A stretch of 64,000 bases of DNA from Xenophilus sp. Marseille-Q4582. GTDB taxonomy: Bacteria; Pseudomonadota; Gammaproteobacteria; Burkholderiales; Burkholderiaceae_C. The position numbers were made by a program, and so were the translations under genes. Of the stretch, positions 28,135 to 35,115 are shown one piece after another (the first letter of the stretch is position 1; every line of letters begins with the position of its first letter). The DNA lies in the NCBI RefSeq assembly GCF_916700565.1, contig NZ_CAKAKO010000004.1, positions 682,001 through 746,000 on the forward strand, in the 5' to 3' direction. A model generated the notes under the pieces. That model was not told where the DNA came from, made no database searches, and saw nothing but the letters and a program-made list of their open reading frames with translations.

Positions 28135-28148
28135 TGAAACCGGTTTCA
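28135..28148. promoter_or_regulatory. PtxS operator, perfect palindrome TGAAACCGGTTTCA
   Basis: A perfect 14-bp palindrome directly before a TACAAT -10 box (28149-28154), 52 bp ahead of the first ABC-transporter gene. In Pseudomonas the 2-ketogluconate repressor PtxS is reported to bind this same 14-mer. The last gene of this operon encodes a PtxS-like LacI regulator. A site abutting the -10 box would block RNA polymerase. Confidence 0.88.
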
Positions 28149-28199
28149 TACAATGATCCCATTGCACGCCCATGACAGCGCCTCGCGCTTCTTCGCTCC

Positions 28200-28871
28200 G
28201 TGAATTACCAATTCCAGTTCGACGCGGTCTTCGCGGCCTGGCCCCTCTTGCTCAAGGGGACCTGGATCACCATCCAGCTGTCGCTCACGGCGACGCTGCT
28301 GGGGCTGCTCGTGGCCGTGCTGTGCGCCTGGGGCAAGACCTCGGGCCCGGCCGTGCTGCGCTTCGTGATCAATGCCTACATCGAACTGATCCGCAACACG
28401 CCGTTCCTGGTCCAGCTCTTTTTCTTCTTCTTCGCGCTGCCGGCCGTCGGCCTGCGCTGGTCGCCCTACACGGCCGCGCTGGTGGCCATGGTGGTCAACC
28501 TGGGCGCCTATGCGACCGAGATCATCCGCGCCGGCATCGAGTCCATCCCCAAGGGCCAGATCGAGGCCGGCCGCGCGCTGAACCTCAAGGGCTGGGAGAT
28601 CTTCCGCTTCATCATCATCAAGCCCGCGCTGAAGGCCATCTACCCGGCGCTGACCAGCCAGTTCATCCTGCTGATGCTGAGTTCGGCCGTGGTGTCGGTG
28701 ATCTCGGCCGACGACCTGACCTCGGTGGCGGCCAACCTGCAATCGCAGACCTTCCGCAGCTTCGAGATCTACATCGTGGTCACGGCCATCTACCTGGCGC
28801 TGGCGCTGGCGTTCTCGGCCCTGTTCAAGCTGATGTACCGCCAGTTCCTGCACTACCCCGACAAGCGATAA
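28200..28871 (+). CDS. Polar-amino-acid-type ABC transporter permease 1
   Basis: A 223-residue inner-membrane permease of the HisM/GlnP class, starting at GTG. Several hydrophobic segments surround the PAAT motif IELIRNTPFLVQLFFFFFALP and the EAA loop (EIIRAGIESIPKGQIEAGRALNLKG) that contacts the ATPase. It is the first gene of the putative 2-ketogluconate operon and follows the PtxS operator. It pairs with the next gene to form the heterodimeric channel. The family normally moves amino acids; the context points to a sugar acid instead. Confidence 0.9.
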   Translation: MNYQFQFDAVFAAWPLLLKGTWITIQLSLTATLLGLLVAVLCAWGKTSGPAVLRFVINAYIELIRNTPFLVQLFFFFFALPAVGLRWSPYTAALVAMVVNLGAYATEIIRAGIESIPKGQIEAGRALNLKGWEIFRFIIIKPALKAIYPALTSQFILLMLSSAVVSVISADDLTSVAANLQSQTFRSFEIYIVVTAIYLALALAFSALFKLMYRQFLHYPDKR

Positions 28872-28887
28872 GGGCCCGGAGACCGAC

Positions 28888-29541
28888 ATGCGTACCTTCG
28901 GCTTTTCCGAATTCCTCTTCATCCTCGAAGCCGCCCAGTGGACGCTGGCGCTGTCGGCCATAGCCTTCGTGGGTGGGGCCCTGCTGGGCCTGGTCATCGC
29001 GCTGGCGCGCACCAGCGACAACCGCGCGGCGCAGTGGCTGTCGGCGGGCTTCATCCAGGTCTTCCAGGGCACGCCGCTGCTGCTGCAGCTGTTCCTGATC
29101 TTCTTCGGCGCGCCCGTGCTGGGCCTGGACATCAACCCCTGGCTCGCCGCCGGCATCGCGCTCATCCTCAACAGCGCCGCCTTCCTGGGCGAGATCTGGC
29201 GCGGGTGCATCCAGGCCATTCCGGGCGGGCAGCGCGAAGCGGCGCTGGCGCTGAACCTGTCGTATGTGGACCGCATGCGCGACGTGATCCTGCCGCAGGC
29301 CTTCAAGATCGCACTGCCGCCCACGGTGGGCTACGTGGTGCAGATCATCAAGGGCACCTCGCTGGCCGCCATCATCGGCTTCACCGAGATCACGCGCGCC
29401 GGCCAGATCATCAACAACGCCACCTTCCAGCCGCTGCACGTGTTCACCACCGTGGCCGCGATCTACTTCGTGATCTGCTGGCCGCTGTCGCTGCTGGCCG
29501 CGCGCATGGAGCGCAGGCGCGCCCGGGCCCTCGCGCGCTGA
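28888..29541 (+). CDS. Polar-amino-acid-type ABC transporter permease 2
   Basis: A 217-residue permease homologous to the preceding one, with FIQVFQGTPLLLQLFLIFFG and an EAA loop (EIWRGCIQAIPGGQREAALALNLSY). It starts 16 bp after permease 1, preceded by a GGAG ribosome site. Together the two form the transmembrane part of one importer. Confidence 0.9.
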   Translation: MRTFGFSEFLFILEAAQWTLALSAIAFVGGALLGLVIALARTSDNRAAQWLSAGFIQVFQGTPLLLQLFLIFFGAPVLGLDINPWLAAGIALILNSAAFLGEIWRGCIQAIPGGQREAALALNLSYVDRMRDVILPQAFKIALPPTVGYVVQIIKGTSLAAIIGFTEITRAGQIINNATFQPLHVFTTVAAIYFVICWPLSLLAARMERRRARALAR

Positions 29542-29610
29542 GCCGCCTTCGCAGTCCGTCCGTCCGCTGCCTTTTTTCGTGTCCGTTCCCTCAATCAAGG
29601 AGACCCCGAG

Positions 29611-30396
29611 ATGAACCCCACCCGCCGCACCGCCATCGCCCTCGGCCTGGGCGCCGCACTGAGCACCCTGGCCCCCTTCGCCTTTGCGCAAAGCGTGGCG
29701 GACATCAAGAAGAAGGGCGAACTGACCATCGGCATGCTGGTGGACTTCCCGCCCTACGGCACCACCGACGCGAGGAACCAGCCCGACGGCTATGACGCCG
29801 ACGTGGCCAAGCTGCTGGCCAAGGAACTGGGCGTGAAGGCGAACATCGTGCCCGTCACCGGCCCCAACCGCATTCCCTTCCTGCTGACCAACAAGGTCGA
29901 CGTGCTGGTGGCATCGCTGGCCGTCACGCCCGAGCGCGCCAAGCAGGTGGACTTCTCCAAGCCCTATGCGGCCGCCACCATCGTGCTGTACGGCAAGAAG
30001 AGCGCCAACATCAAGAGCGCGGCCGACCTGAAGGGCGTGCGCGTGGGCGTGGCCCGTGCCAGCACGCAGGACGTGGCGGTGACCAAGGCCGCGCCGGAAG
30101 GCACCGAGATCCGCCGCTTCGACGACGACGCCTCGGCCATGCAGGCGCTGATGTCGGGCCAGGTCGATGCGATCGGCTGCTCGGTCACGGTGGCGGCGCA
30201 GATCGCCAAGCGCGTGCCGGCCGACACCTTCGAGAACAAGTTCAACCTGCTGCAGCAGGGCATGGGCATCGCGCTGCGCCCGGGCCAGCAGGAGCTGCTC
30301 GCGGCCGTGAATGCCTTCATCGACAAGAACACCGCCAATGGCGAGCTGAACAAGCTCTACCAGAAGTGGCTGGGCACGGATTTCCCGAAATTCTGA
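29611..30396 (+). CDS. Periplasmic solute-binding protein of the ABC importer
   Basis: A 261-residue type-II binding protein of the amino-acid cluster with a Sec/Tat-like signal (residues 1-26, preceded by TRR, ending AFA). R109 in VTPER matches the arginine that holds the ligand carboxylate in HisJ/GlnH-type proteins. The position of the aspartate that normally binds the alpha-amino group (as in the Q-D-E-V or H-D-T-P contexts) is S191 here (DAIGCSVTVA). A keto acid has no amino group, so this fits a 2-ketogluconate ligand. The alignment was made by eye. Confidence 0.88.
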   Translation: MNPTRRTAIALGLGAALSTLAPFAFAQSVADIKKKGELTIGMLVDFPPYGTTDARNQPDGYDADVAKLLAKELGVKANIVPVTGPNRIPFLLTNKVDVLVASLAVTPERAKQVDFSKPYAAATIVLYGKKSANIKSAADLKGVRVGVARASTQDVAVTKAAPEGTEIRRFDDDASAMQALMSGQVDAIGCSVTVAAQIAKRVPADTFENKFNLLQQGMGIALRPGQQELLAAVNAFIDKNTANGELNKLYQKWLGTDFPKF

Positions 30397-30534
30397 GGCA
30401 ACCCCCAGGCCGCTTCGCGGCTCCCCCTTCTGCTGCGCGAAGGGGGCGCACCCAGAGGACTGGCAGAGCCAGATCCTCGGGTGCCCTGAGTTTGATGAGA
30501 ACCCGCGCTTCTTCCGTTTTTCAGCCCCACCGCC
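30397..30534 (+). repeat. Intergenic hairpin, Burkholderiales-type repeat
   Basis: The gap between the binding-protein and ATPase genes holds the stem CCCCCTTC-N8-GAAGGGGG at 30423-30446, next to GGCCGCTTCGCGGC. Such CCCAGGCCGCTTCGCGG-type sequences recur between genes in Comamonadaceae. It may act as a partial terminator or mRNA stabiliser that raises binding protein over ATPase. Confidence 0.6.
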
Positions 30535-31299
30535 ATGACGCCAGCCTCCAACAGCTCCACCGATCCGATCATCCGCATGCAAGGGGTGAACAAGTGGTAC
30601 GGCGAATTCCAGGTGCTCACCGACATCGACCTGTCGGTGCGCCCCGGTGAGCGCATCGTGATCTGCGGGCCTTCGGGCTCGGGCAAGTCCACGCTGATCC
30701 GCTGCATCAACCGGCTGGAGACGGTGCAGAAGGGCCAGATCGTCGTCGACGGCATCGAGCTCACGGCCGGTGGCAGGAACGTGGACGCCGTGCGCGCCGA
30801 GGTGGGCATGGTGTTCCAGCAGTTCAACCTGTTCCCGCACCTCACGATCCTGCAGAACTGCACGCTGGCGCCGATGCGCTCGCGCGGCATGAGCCGTGCG
30901 GAAGCGGAAGCGGTGGCGATGAAGTACCTCGCGCGGGTGCGCATTCCCGAGCAGGCGAACAAATACCCGAGCCAGCTTTCGGGTGGGCAGCAGCAGCGCG
31001 TGGCCATTGCGCGTGCACTGTGCATGGCGCCGCGCATTATGCTGTTCGACGAGCCCACGTCCGCGCTCGACCCGGAGATGGTCAAGGAAGTGCTCGACAC
31101 CATGATCGGCCTGGCCGAAGACGGCATGACCATGCTGTGCGTGACGCACGAGATGGGCTTTGCCCGCAGCGTGGCCGACCGCGTGATCTTCATGGCCGAG
31201 GGCCGCATCATCGAGCAGGGCCCGCCCGCCGAATTCTTCGGGAACCCGCGGCACGAGAAGACGCGCCAGTTCCTGGGCCAGATCCTGTCGCAACACTGA
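30535..31299 (+). CDS. ABC transporter ATP-binding protein, amino-acid family
   Basis: A 254-residue ATPase with Walker [10 protein letters not shown] (near residue 45), Q-loop FQQFNLFPH, signature LSGGQQQR, Walker [15 protein letters not shown] and an H-loop (THEMGFAR). It is of the GlnQ/HisP type and pairs with the two PAAT permeases upstream. Its stop and the kguE start share one base (TGATG), which puts transporter and catabolic genes in a single transcript. Confidence 0.94.
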
Positions 31300-32069
31300 T
31301 GTTCCGCACGCTCATCTCCCTGTCGTCCTTTGGTGCGGCGGAACTGTTGCGCCACGGCCAGGCCTGGTGCACCGCGCTGGCGCTGGAGGCTGGCGCCGAC
31401 AGCGTGGAAGTGCGCGGCGAACTGCTGCGCAACGCCGCGCGCGAGCTGCCCGAACTGCGCGGCCGCGCCGCCGTCTATTCGAGCCCCGACGGTCTCTGGC
31501 GCGCAGACGGCACGCTGGACGCCGAGGCCCTCGCGCTGGGCCTGTCGCGCGCCGCCGCGCTGGAGGCGCCGCGCCTGAAGATGGCGATCGGCGGCTTCGA
31601 CGCGCGCCGCTCTCGTGCCTCGCTGGCCGAGCTGCGTGCGCGCCTGGCTGCGCAGCCGGTCGAGCTGCTGATCGAGAACGACCAGACCGTGAGCGCCGGC
31701 ACGCTGGCAGCCGTGCAGCGCTTCCTGGCCGCGCAGGCCGAGGCCGGGCTCGACCTGGGCCTGACCTTCGACATGGGCAACTGGCACTGGCTGGGCGAAT
31801 GCCCGCTGCAGGCGGCCCGTGCGCTGGCGCCGCAGGTGCGCTACGTGCATTGCAAGGGCGTGCACCGCCGTCCCGACAAATGGGTGGCCGTGCCGCTGGC
31901 GCAATCGAGCGCCCCCTGGCGCGCCGTGCTGCGCGAGCTGCCGGCCGACGTGCCGCACGCCCTCGAATACCCGCTGGTGGGCGACGACCTGCTGGCCGTG
32001 ACACGCGCCGAGCTGACGCAGCTGCGCGCCCTGCATGCCGAACGGAGCCTTGCGCATGACCTCGCCTGA
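31299..32069 (+). CDS. kguE: KguE-like sugar phosphate isomerase/epimerase
   Basis: A 256-residue TIM-barrel protein of the xylose-isomerase-like family. Candidate metal and substrate ligands lie in LLIENDQT, TFDMGNWHW, YVHCKGV and ALEYPLVGDD. In Pseudomonas a protein of this type (kguE) is cotranscribed with kguK, kguT and kguD; its reaction is not firmly established. It overlaps the ATPase gene by one base and kguK by 14 bp. The identification relies on family plus context. Confidence 0.78.
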   Translation: MFRTLISLSSFGAAELLRHGQAWCTALALEAGADSVEVRGELLRNAARELPELRGRAAVYSSPDGLWRADGTLDAEALALGLSRAAALEAPRLKMAIGGFDARRSRASLAELRARLAAQPVELLIENDQTVSAGTLAAVQRFLAAQAEAGLDLGLTFDMGNWHWLGECPLQAARALAPQVRYVHCKGVHRRPDKWVAVPLAQSSAPWRAVLRELPADVPHALEYPLVGDDLLAVTRAELTQLRALHAERSLAHDLA

Positions 32070-33015
32070 GCCCACCTTCTTCGACGTCGCCACCTTCGGC
32101 GAGGCCATGCTGCTGCTGGTGGCCGACGAGCCGGGGCCGCTCGAACACGCCACGCTGTTCCACAAGCGCACGGCGGGTGCCGAGACCAACGTCGCCATCG
32201 GCCTCGCGCGGCTGGGCCTGAAGGTGGGCTGGGCCAGCCGCCTGGGCACCGATTCGATGGGCCGCGCGCTGCTGGCGGCCATGCAGGGCGAGGGCATCGA
32301 CTGCTCGCACGTGGTGTGCGATGCGTCGCAGAAGACCGGCTTCCAGTTCAAGGGCCGCGTCACCGACGGCAGCGATCCGCCGGTCGAATACCACCGCAAG
32401 GGCTCGGCCGCGAGCCAGATGCGGCCCGGGGACATCGACGAGGCCTGGCTGCGCTCGGCGCGCCACCTGCATGCCACGGGCGTGTTCGCCGCCGTGTCCG
32501 ACAGCACGCTGGCCACGTCCATCCGCACGCTGGAGATTGCGCGCGCCGCGGGCCGCACCATCTCCTTCGACACCAACCTGCGGCCCCAGCTCTGGGGCAG
32601 CGCGCAGCGCATGCGCGAATGCATCAACGATCTGGCGGCGCGCGCGGACTGGGTGCTGCCGGGCATCGAGGAGGGCCGCCTGCTCACGGGCGAAGACACG
32701 CCCGAGGGCGTGGCCCGCTTCTACCGCGCGCGTGGCGCCAAGCTGGTGGTGGTCAAGCTGGGTCCCGAAGGCGCGTACTACGACAGCGACACCGAAGGCA
32801 CGGGCCACGTCGCGGGCTTTCCGGTGAAGGAAGTCATCGACACCGTGGGCGCGGGCGACGGCTTCGCGGCCGGTGTGATCAGCGCGCTGCTGGAAGGCCG
32901 CAGCGTGGCCGACGCCGTGCGACGCGGCGCCTGGATCGGCGCGCGCGCCGTCCAGGTGCTGGGCGACACCGAGGGCCTGCCCACGCGCGCCGAGCTGGAA
33001 GCGGCCGGGCTCTGA
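32056..33015 (+). CDS. kguK: 2-ketogluconate kinase
   Basis: A 319-residue PfkB-family sugar kinase. The N-terminal GEAMLLLVADEPG and KRTAGAETNVAIGLARLG blocks bind the sugar acid. The C-terminal DTVGAGDGFAAG holds the catalytic aspartate and anion hole. The family includes 2-keto-3-deoxygluconate and 2-ketogluconate kinases; the KguE/KguD/PtxS neighbours favour 2-ketogluconate, giving 2-keto-6-phosphogluconate. The start at 32056 (MTSPEP) is preferred; an earlier ATG at 32035 is possible. Confidence 0.85.
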   Translation: MTSPEPTFFDVATFGEAMLLLVADEPGPLEHATLFHKRTAGAETNVAIGLARLGLKVGWASRLGTDSMGRALLAAMQGEGIDCSHVVCDASQKTGFQFKGRVTDGSDPPVEYHRKGSAASQMRPGDIDEAWLRSARHLHATGVFAAVSDSTLATSIRTLEIARAAGRTISFDTNLRPQLWGSAQRMRECINDLAARADWVLPGIEEGRLLTGEDTPEGVARFYRARGAKLVVVKLGPEGAYYDSDTEGTGHVAGFPVKEVIDTVGAGDGFAAGVISALLEGRSVADAVRRGAWIGARAVQVLGDTEGLPTRAELEAAGL

Positions 33016-33103
33016 GCCGCGGCCCGGTGGCGCGGCACAGGCTTCGCGCCACACGACAGACAATGCGCCAACTCGCGCGACAGCGCCGGACCGAACCCGA
33101 GAC

Positions 33104-34084
33104 ATGACACGCCAGAACATCCTCGTTTTCCGCGAACTCCCGCCCGACCAGCTGGCCCGCCTGCAGGCCGCGCACGCGGTCACGGTGGCCGACCCCAAGA
33201 CCCACCGCGCGGCCTTCGACGCCGCGCTGCCCACGGCCCATGGGCTGATCGGGTCCAGCTTTCCCATCGACAAGGCGGTGCTGGACCGCGCACCCGCGTT
33301 GAAGGTGGTGTCCAGCGTCTCGGTCGGCGTGGACAACTACGCGCTGGCCGAACTGCATCGCCGCGGCATCCTGCTGTGCCACACGCCCGGCGTGCTCGAC
33401 GAGACGGTGGCCGACACCGTCTTCGCACTGCTGATGGCCACGAGCCGCCGCGTGGTGGAGCTGTCCAACCTCGTGCGCGAAGGCCGATGGACGAAGAACA
33501 TCGGCGAGGAGTTCTTCGGCTTCGACGTGCACGGCAAGACGCTGGGCCTGCTGGGCTTCGGGCGCATCGGGCAGGCCATCGCGCGCCGCGCGGCGCTGGG
33601 CTTTGGCATGCCGGTGCGCTACCACACGCGCCGGCCGGTGGATCTGGCCGCGCAGGCGCCCGCGCTGGTGGGCCATGCCGAGCATCGCTCGATGGACACG
33701 CTGCTGGCCGAGTCCGATTTCGTAGTCGCCATGCTGCCGCTGTCGGACAGCACGCGCGGCCTCGCGGATGCCGGCTTCTTCGCGCGCATGAAGCGCGGCG
33801 CCATCTTCATCAATGGCGGGCGCGGCGCGACGGTGGATGAGGCCGCGTTGCTGGCCGCGCTGGACAGCGGCCATCTGCGCGCGGCGGGCCTGGACGTGTT
33901 CGCGAAGGAGCCGCTGCCGGCCGACTCGCCGCTGCGCACGCATCCGCGCGTCACGCCGCTGCCGCACATCGGCTCGGCCACGCACGAGACGCGCTACGCC
34001 ATGAACCGCCTGGCCGTCGACAACCTGCTGGCCGCGCTGGCCGGCCAGCGGCCCGCGGCGGTCTACGACACGGCGGCGTTGTGA
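33104..34084 (+). CDS. kguD: 2-ketogluconate-6-phosphate reductase (D-2-hydroxyacid dehydrogenase family)
   Basis: A 326-residue NAD(P)-dependent dehydrogenase of the GhrB/gluconate-2-dehydrogenase type. The Rossmann motif is GLLGFGRIGQAIARR near residue 147. Catalytic elements are the substrate loop SSVSVGVDNY, NGGRGATVDEAAL, and the histidine in LPHIGSATHETR. In kgu pathways it reduces 2-keto-6-phosphogluconate to 6-phosphogluconate, which enters the Entner-Doudoroff or pentose phosphate routes. It follows kguK by 88 bp and overlaps ptxS by 4 bp (GTGA). Confidence 0.85.
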   Translation: MTRQNILVFRELPPDQLARLQAAHAVTVADPKTHRAAFDAALPTAHGLIGSSFPIDKAVLDRAPALKVVSSVSVGVDNYALAELHRRGILLCHTPGVLDETVADTVFALLMATSRRVVELSNLVREGRWTKNIGEEFFGFDVHGKTLGLLGFGRIGQAIARRAALGFGMPVRYHTRRPVDLAAQAPALVGHAEHRSMDTLLAESDFVVAMLPLSDSTRGLADAGFFARMKRGAIFINGGRGATVDEAALLAALDSGHLRAAGLDVFAKEPLPADSPLRTHPRVTPLPHIGSATHETRYAMNRLAVDNLLAALAGQRPAAVYDTAAL

Positions 34085-35115
34085 ACGCGCCGCGCCGCGC
34101 CACCATCGCCGACGTGGCCACGGCCGCCGGCGTTTCCAAGGCCACGGTCTCGCGCTTCCTCAACCACCGCGAGAAGCTGCTCAGCCCCGACATCGCCGCG
34201 CGCGTGGAGGCGGCCATCCAGCGGCTGGGCTACTCGCCCAGCCCGATGGCGCAGGCGCTGAGCCGCGGGCGCTCGCGCCTCATCGGCCTGATCGTGGCCG
34301 ACATCACCAACCCCTACTCGGTGGCCGTGCTGCGCGGCGCCGAGAAGGCCTGCCAGGACGCCGGCTACCTCGTGATGCTGTTCAACCTGGGCAACGAGCC
34401 TGGGCGCGAGCAGGAGGCCATCCAGGCGCTGGCCGGCTACCAGGTCGATGGCTTCATCCTCAACACGCTGGGCCGCGGCAGTGGCGTGGTCGACGCCATG
34501 GCCACCCAGGGCAAGCCCGCGGTGCTGGTGGACCGCCGCCATACGGGCATGCATGCCGACTTCGTGTCGCTGGACAACCGGGCGGCCGTGCAGCAGGCCT
34601 GCGAGCACCTGCTCGAAGGCGGCTGGCGCGAACTGCTCTACGTGAGCGAGCCGCTCAAGGGCGTGAGCACGCGGCGCGAGCGCGCGGGCGCCTTCACGGC
34701 CTGCATGGACGCACACGCGAAGACGGCGCGCGGCGAAGTCTTCGAGAGCGAAGAGGGTGACGACGCAGGCCTGCAGGCCGCGTTGCAGGCCTTGCACAAG
34801 CGCGCCCAGCGCCGCAGGGGCGTGCGCGCCGCAGTGCTGGCCGGCAATGCCGTGGTCACGCTGCGCGTGGCGCAGGCCGTGGCGCGCCTGGGCTGGCAGT
34901 TCGGCCAGGAGCTGGGCTTCGTCGGCTTCGACGATCCCGAATGGGCCTCGCTGATCGGCCCCGGCCTGTCCACCATCGCGCAGCCCACCGACGAGATCGG
35001 CCGCACGGCCGCCCGCTGCCTGATCGAGCGGCTGCACGGGCTGGAGGGCCCGCCGCGGCAGTCGCTGCTGCCGGGCGAGCTCAAGCCCCGTGGGTCGTCC
35101 GCCGCCCGCGCCTGA
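34081..35115 (+). CDS. ptxS: PtxS-like LacI-family repressor
   Basis: A 344-residue LacI-family regulator starting at GTG within the kguD stop. The HTH is at residues 6-30 (ATIADVATAAGVSKATVSRF) with the hinge near 50-60. The periplasmic-binding-like domain follows (LIGLIVADITNPYSVAVLRGAE; FVGFDDPEWASLI; TTIAQPTDEIG-like end). Its place at the end of a kgu operon with a TGAAACCGGTTTCA operator supports PtxS, which responds to 2-ketogluconate in Pseudomonas. Since it is in the operon it should repress its own synthesis. Confidence 0.85.
   Translation: MNAPRRATIADVATAAGVSKATVSRFLNHREKLLSPDIAARVEAAIQRLGYSPSPMAQALSRGRSRLIGLIVADITNPYSVAVLRGAEKACQDAGYLVMLFNLGNEPGREQEAIQALAGYQVDGFILNTLGRGSGVVDAMATQGKPAVLVDRRHTGMHADFVSLDNRAAVQQACEHLLEGGWRELLYVSEPLKGVSTRRERAGAFTACMDAHAKTARGEVFESEEGDDAGLQAALQALHKRAQRRRGVRAAVLAGNAVVTLRVAQAVARLGWQFGQELGFVGFDDPEWASLIGPGLSTIAQPTDEIGRTAARCLIERLHGLEGPPRQSLLPGELKPRGSSAARA

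Follow-up and report, generated by a model that had tools for sequence, protein, structure and literature searches.

A putative PtxS-controlled 2-ketogluconate operon with an amino-acid-type ABC importer in place of KguT in Xenophilus

Introduction

The closest described relative of the locus reported here is the Pseudomonas operon for 2-ketogluconate (2KG), given in the available portions of PMC5902321 and PMC6237876 as kguE-kguK-kguT-kguD with ptxS. KguT is a permease of the major facilitator superfamily (MFS), and P. aeruginosa without it fails to grow on 2KG, according to the accessible part of PMC6237876. The excerpted text of PMC5902321 names 2KG as the effector of the repressor PtxS, presents a model in which Lys-25 and Ala-26 of PtxS touch the DNA, and gives the same operator as is found at the present locus. 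A second point of comparison is the polar amino acid uptake transporter (PAAT) family of ATP-binding cassette (ABC) importers, with GlnHPQ, HisJQMP and ArgT as members.

Here we describe a run of eight genes in a stretch of 64,000 nucleotides (the window) from Xenophilus sp. Marseille-Q4582 (contig NZ_CAKAKO010000004.1, positions 682,001 to 746,000). Judged by its gene content, the conservation of that content, the match between operator and regulator, the replacement of one importer by another in the same slot, a residue change in the binding protein and the presence of edd in the genome, the run is very probably a PtxS-controlled 2KG operon in which an ABC importer of the PAAT kind serves as the uptake step, with 2KG as its substrate.

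Results

Between positions 28135 and 35115 the window carries eight plus-strand genes head to tail, flanked by two long reading frames on the opposite strand. A first-pass annotation of the DNA had described one rightward run joining four PAAT-type ABC genes to kguE, kguK, kguD and a PtxS-like LacI gene, and all eight were located as described (Table 1); the overlaps that it had noted at ATPase/kguE, kguE/kguK and kguD/ptxS are present and measure 1, 14 and 4 nt. By profile and by fold, the importer gene set is complete, with an SBP_bac_3 solute-binding protein (SBP), two permeases of the family type and a GlnQ-like ATPase, and no KguT was detected among the eight genes. The enzymes resemble those of 18 MFS-type clusters described below, with identities of 54-57% for kguK, 50-54% for kguD and 35-45% for kguE, which occupies the same place.

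The importer is tied to the kgu genes across related genomes. A genome scan with the SBP gave 539 relatives, of which the best 80 were kept and analysed. In a sample of 250 genomes of the family, the SBP profile matched at E<=1e-60 in 42, of which 32 reached E<=4.0e-130; from these 32 we analysed 29 loci, the window being the thirtieth and G731 and G724 lying at contig ends. As the two sets overlap, their counts are not to be summed. Counting SBPs at least 70% identical to that of the window, kguK lies downstream on the same strand in 75 of the 75 loci with enough contig among the best 80 of 539 (the other five are cut off by the contig end), and downstream in 28 of the 28 testable loci of the family sample, the twenty-ninth ending too early. 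These 75 loci also hold kguE (70), kguD (74) and ptxS (68), and the 28 family-sample loci kguE (21), kguD (26) and ptxS (25); KguT occurs in 0 of the 75 and 0 of the 28. Conservation of the ABC-kgu-ptxS order, which the first-pass annotation had named as a point to check, is thus borne out for the importer and kguK in both sets; ptxS is the last gene of the run in the window and lies upstream of the importer in other relatives.

Other kgu clusters were sought by running KguE and KguK profiles on class, order and phylum samples. In 18 clusters from three families (f212, 3; f161, 6; f232, 9), the gene that separates kguK from kguD encodes an MFS protein. All three f212 transporters belong to MFS_1, the two scanned with NCBIfam matching best a D-galactonate-transporter subfamily, below its cut-off, and the remaining MFS proteins of the 18 clusters are at least 68% identical to those of f212. 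The f161 clusters, taken for Pseudomonas by their gene order and operator, carry the operator TGAAACCGGTTTCA twice each, before kguE and before ptxS. The earlier statement that the known kgu operons rely on an MFS permease agrees with these 18 clusters but fails for five others, four in f172 and one in f236 (L240, L241, L243, L254 and L260), in which ptxS-kguK-kguD has neither importer adjacent; a TRAP permease gene (DctM) lies near that of L241, in f172. Partial sets were left out of the cluster count, namely kguE with kguD (L101, f172), kguE with kguK (L113, f186) and several KguK matches without kguD. The genome that holds the window has no close match to KguT, the only carrier searched for (best 22% identity, 48.6 bits). 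Among the 250 genomes of the family sample, one has a KguT match at E<=1e-60; this match is 32% identical, and the stretch around it is free of kgu genes.

A different PAAT importer occupies the same slot in locus L155, from the window's family. Its ptxS, kguE, kguK and kguD are 63-66% identical to those of the window and its importer, with the SBP gene first, 44-51%. The arrangement recurs in L109, from another family, where the importer likewise precedes kgu; the SBPs of L109 and L155 are 68% identical. A tree of KguK and KguD, which includes 14 of the 18 MFS-type clusters, pairs L155 with the window-type cluster L165 (100/100), inside the window-type clade (100/100), and the SBP tree pairs it with L109 (99/88). 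(A label in the SBP tree marking L234 as kgu-linked is wrong.) Since the kgu genes of L155 nest in the window-type clade while its SBP pairs with L109, the slot has been filled anew with a pump of the same type, a divergent PAAT importer. With the conservation described above, the MFS-type sister clusters and the lack of a close KguT, this upholds the earlier suggestion that a PAAT-type importer replaces KguT.

The SBP itself departs from its amino-acid-binding relatives. In alignments, the window SBP keeps the carboxylate-binding Arg109 and has Ser191 at the position of an Asp that we take to be the amine contact, as Asp161 in HisJ and LAO. The aligned residue is Asp in four of five solved relatives, the fifth, TmArgBP, having a one-residue gap there, and in four canonical paralogues. 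Across 98 operon SBPs (100 linked rows minus the canonical paralogues L058_1 and L066_1, which merely share a locus with kgu), the column holds Ser in 96, Pro in 2 and Asp in none. An SBP from the same genome as the window (L086), with Ile at the column, Asp beside it and an unsure alignment, was left uncounted. Against the NCBIfam lysine/arginine/ornithine SBP model TIGR01096, the window SBP scores 163.5 bits, below the curated cut-off of 256.35. Near its start (window 29611-29690), Arg5-Arg6 is invariant in 14 aligned relatives and may point to Tat export.

It could be argued that the substrate of the ABC importer is an ordinary amino acid, its genes being merely co-transcribed with kgu, and that 2KG enters through another, unrecognised carrier. 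The PAAT family profile and the amino-acid-binding structural neighbours would suit this view, as would a genome search for carriers limited to KguT. It is nevertheless very improbable given the linkage to kguK at every testable locus of the two overlapping sets, the exchange of importers inside the slot, the loss of the amine Asp and the lack of a close KguT.

Evidence for control by PtxS, which supports assignment to 2KG, comes from the DNA in front of the importer. The perfect PtxS operator claimed in the first-pass annotation is indeed exact, and it is the sole match to TGAAACCGGTTTCA at up to three mismatches in the 64 kb, where shuffles average 0.59 at that looseness. In 104 distinct relatives, the 300 nt before permA hold the exact site in 87 cases, a copy with a single mismatch in 10 and a copy with two mismatches in 1, and no site was found in the other 6. 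When 20,000 random 300-nt stretches were drawn from these loci as a control, 361 contained the site, a count that includes the operators themselves. A chance site was ruled out because the match is exact and conserved upstream of permA. The operator had also been said to abut a promoter -10 box. A TACAAT hexamer does abut it, but no sigma-70 promoter passed a simple consensus scan, and the -35 box is therefore poor.

The recognition helix of PtxS covaries with the operator. Loci were included when their ptxS match reached 35% and their kguK match 47%, and identical proteins were counted once. Among the resulting 116 distinct PtxS proteins, Lys-Ala occurs with TGAAACCGGTTTCA in 86 and Lys-Thr with TGGAACCGGTTCCA in 12, and crossed pairs in 0; as the rows are related, these pairs are not independent events. 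Eighteen of the 116 go with no exact copy of either operator (12 Lys-Ala, 6 Lys-Thr). The window PtxS has Lys-Ala, the type paired with the TGAAACC operator.

Both edd (904.6 bits) and a glucose/quinate-type membrane PQQ dehydrogenase (967 bits) are encoded in the genome. We propose that the SBP would capture periplasmic 2KG, with Arg109 holding the carboxylate and Ser191, in place of the amine-binding Asp, fitting the 2-keto or anomeric-hydroxyl group. Import of 2KG would be the task of the permease pair and the ATPase; inside the cell, KguK would phosphorylate it and KguD then reduce the product to 6-phosphogluconate, to be passed to the Entner-Doudoroff pathway, for which edd is present. 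Internal 2KG would release PtxS from the operator. The simplest picture is that of a scavenger of outside 2KG with a pump of presumably high affinity.

We also analysed the neighbours of more distant PAAT relatives. Beside L151 (SBP 55% identical) lie an SDR gene and a gene similar to that for 2,4-didehydro-3-deoxy-L-rhamnonate hydrolase (431 bits against a cut-off of 500), with a TRAP set nearby. L160 is divergent from genes for D-mannonate dehydratase (760 bits, above the cut-off of 550), a KDG-kinase-like protein and a GntR-type protein, and a gene resembling that for fructuronate reductase lies farther along (302 bits, below 603). Next to L234 and on its strand lie genes for an altronate/galactarate dehydratase (386 bits, cut-off 731), a tagaturonate-reductase-like protein (197 bits, cut-off 359), a Zn-dehydrogenase and a kinase. 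Non-sugar contexts occur as well: L153 adjoins MaoC and CoA-transferase genes, and L152 and L157 general oxidoreductases. A second PAAT importer in the window's own genome (L266:3855-10021, G000:C1:282854-289020), with an SBP 44% identical to that of the window and Thr at the Asp position, adjoins LacI, glyoxalase-like and RuBisCO-like genes.

A plasmid search gave 108 records at E<=1e-60, from which 14 regions were selected. A KguD-like gene follows the ATPase gene in 11 of the 14, at 73% identity in L270 and 35-41% in the ten others; in L267, where it is in two pieces, and L278 it is not annotated and was identified by protein match. L268, L274 and L277 are without it. One Ketogulonicigenium and two Paracoccus plasmids also carry a sugar kinase (29% identical to KguK) and an FAA hydrolase. 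The cluster of the Ketogulonicigenium vulgare plasmid NZ_CP103999.1 (L271) reads LacI-PAAT-2-hydroxyacid dehydrogenase-sugar kinase-FAA hydrolase; K. vulgare is known as the producer of 2-keto-L-gulonate, and Ketogulonicigenium as a producer of vitamin C.

The L-rhamnonate, D-mannonate, altronate and 2-hydroxyacid dehydrogenase genes beside these related importers suggest a PAAT branch dedicated to sugar acids in both Beta- and Alphaproteobacteria. We consider it rather probable that such a branch exists, that it was recruited at least twice for 2KG and also for L-rhamnonate, D-mannonate, altronate or galactonate, and 2-ketoaldonates (Sinorhizobium, Ketogulonicigenium), and that its shared trait is loss of the amine Asp with the carboxylate Arg kept. 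The same neighbourhoods raise two further explanations of the window operon. It might serve another 2-ketoaldonate or related sugar acid (2-keto-L-gulonate, glucosaminate or gluconate), importer and enzymes having shifted together, as the L-rhamnonate-type, D-mannonate and altronate/galactarate-type neighbours and the alphaproteobacterial plasmid importers beside a 2-hydroxyacid dehydrogenase, with or without a kinase, would allow. A PAAT importer for glucosaminate is reportedly recorded in Fitness Browser/GapMind; this ligand is disfavoured by the loss of the amine-contact Asp. The shift as a whole is quite unlikely, as kguE, kguK, kguD and ptxS are the same set as in the MFS-type clusters and the operator is identical, letter by letter, to that of PtxS in P. 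aeruginosa, a repressor for which the available part of PMC5902321 gives 2KG as effector. Alternatively, the importer may be a broad scavenger of sugar acids and opines with 2KG as one of several ligands. The diverse sugar-acid contexts of the relatives fit such breadth, and the related SocA binds sugar-amino conjugates; with the window-type SBPs tied to kgu in the genome sets, two plasmid copies excepted, we regard it as unlikely, if less so than the preceding explanation.

Several findings weigh against a dedicated 2KG importer and operon. The two plasmid SBP copies break the link to kguK. One, on Variovorax paradoxus plasmid CP063168.1 (L270), belongs to a window-type importer (SBP 80% identical) that stands with kguD (73%), without kguK, beside dihydroxy-acid dehydratase and YncE-family genes, possibly as a non-phosphorylating 2KG route. 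The other, on V. paradoxus plasmid CP063167.1 (L277), is an orphan window-type SBP (78%) without permeases, adjoining an RraA-family gene. At L059:7001-9505, a variant operon lacks the ATPase gene and kguD between the remaining genes. The amine-contact Asp is also absent in L153 and L082, relatives beside non-sugar genes, and its loss was accordingly rejected as a mark specific to 2KG. Most of the solved structures listed as nearest bind amino acids or opines, and the others are cyclohexadienyl dehydratases and a sensor domain. None of KguE, KguK and KguD reached the NCBIfam equivalog level in the profile scan; since naming by that route failed, their names follow synteny and the available text of PMC5902321. 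Finally, a profile search of the genome found no Gluconate_2-dh3, and periplasmic production of 2KG by the organism's own FAD gluconate dehydrogenase was rejected on this ground, although the PQQ membrane dehydrogenase is there; 2KG would therefore come from outside or via another enzyme.

The coordinates of the operon are collected in Table 1. The hairpins of the spacer that follows the SBP gene perhaps keep SBP expression above that of the rest of the operon.

Table 1. Predicted features of the operon, in window coordinates
Feature	Position	Strand	Basis
PtxS operator TGAAACCGGTTTCA	28135-28148		exact match; equals P. aeruginosa PtxS operator in the available part of PMC5902321
-10-like hexamer TACAAT, abutting operator	28149-28154	+	read from sequence
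permA, PAAT-type permease subunit A	28200-28871	+	GTG start; BPD_transp_1; HEQRo_perm_3TM 98.8 bits (cut-off 42.2)
permB, PAAT-type permease subunit B	28888-29541	+	BPD_transp_1; HEQRo_perm_3TM 101.6 bits (cut-off 42.2)
Periplasmic SBP	29611-30396	+	SBP_bac_3 133.5 bits; AF2 model pLDDT 83.5
SBP-ATPase spacer, strong RNA hairpins	30397-30534	+	-61.9 kcal/mol, z -3.04; 1 of 200 shuffles as low
ABC ATPase, GlnQ-like	30535-31299	+	ABC_tran; GlnQ 323 bits (below equivalog cut-off 379)
kguE, TIM-barrel epimerase/isomerase-like	31299-32069	+	AP_endonuc_2 24.5 bits (below cut-off 31.1); synteny with MFS-type clusters
kguK, PfkB-family 2-ketogluconate kinase	32056-33015	+	PfkB 195.8 bits
kguD, 2-keto-6-phosphogluconate reductase, GhrB-like	33104-34084	+	2-Hacid_dh_C; GhrB 358 bits (below cut-off 492)
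ptxS, LacI-family repressor	34081-35115	+	GTG start; LacI HTH and Peripla_BP_3

Discussion

No description of a PAAT-type 2KG importer was found in searches on ketogluconate and glucosaminate in the open-licence literature of PMC, subscription literature lying outside it, including the available portions of PMC5902321, PMC6237876, PMC2842291, PMC7284689 and PMC12684718; term searches of Ravcheev 2014 and Price 2022 likewise gave no match. The genome evidence supports the earlier reading well, and the locus would represent a new form of the kgu operon that also widens the range of a known transporter family. That the kgu genes accompany a PAAT pump in soil-dwelling relatives of Xenophilus and Variovorax suggests that this family carries sugar acids as well. 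Public records, those of the plasmid copies for example, label such pumps amino acid transporters; if sugar acids are indeed their cargo, a large number of the predictions made for transporters of soil and root bacteria would be mistaken, and candidate sugar-acid importers could be flagged by a simple rule, loss of the Asp with the Arg retained. The operon would also illustrate that an MFS carrier can be traded for a costlier ABC pump, as expected for a scavenger of 2KG from neighbours.

Compared with the Pseudomonas kgu operon, as far as the available portions of PMC5902321 and PMC6237876 describe it, the window has the same kguE, kguK and kguD, a LacI protein of the PtxS type and TGAAACCGGTTTCA near the -10 hexamer. 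It differs in having a four-gene PAAT-type ABC importer at the operon head instead of the MFS permease KguT, and ptxS last in the run. Unlike GlnHPQ, HisJQMP and ArgT, the importer has Ser for the amine-contact Asp in its SBP and is linked to sugar-acid catabolism. The opine importers SocA, OccJ and NocT, which share the PAAT fold and take non-standard, partly sugar-derived ligands, may be regarded as a partial precedent for such an extension of the family; opines, however, retain an amino-acid part, whereas the ligand expected for the window importer is without an amine.

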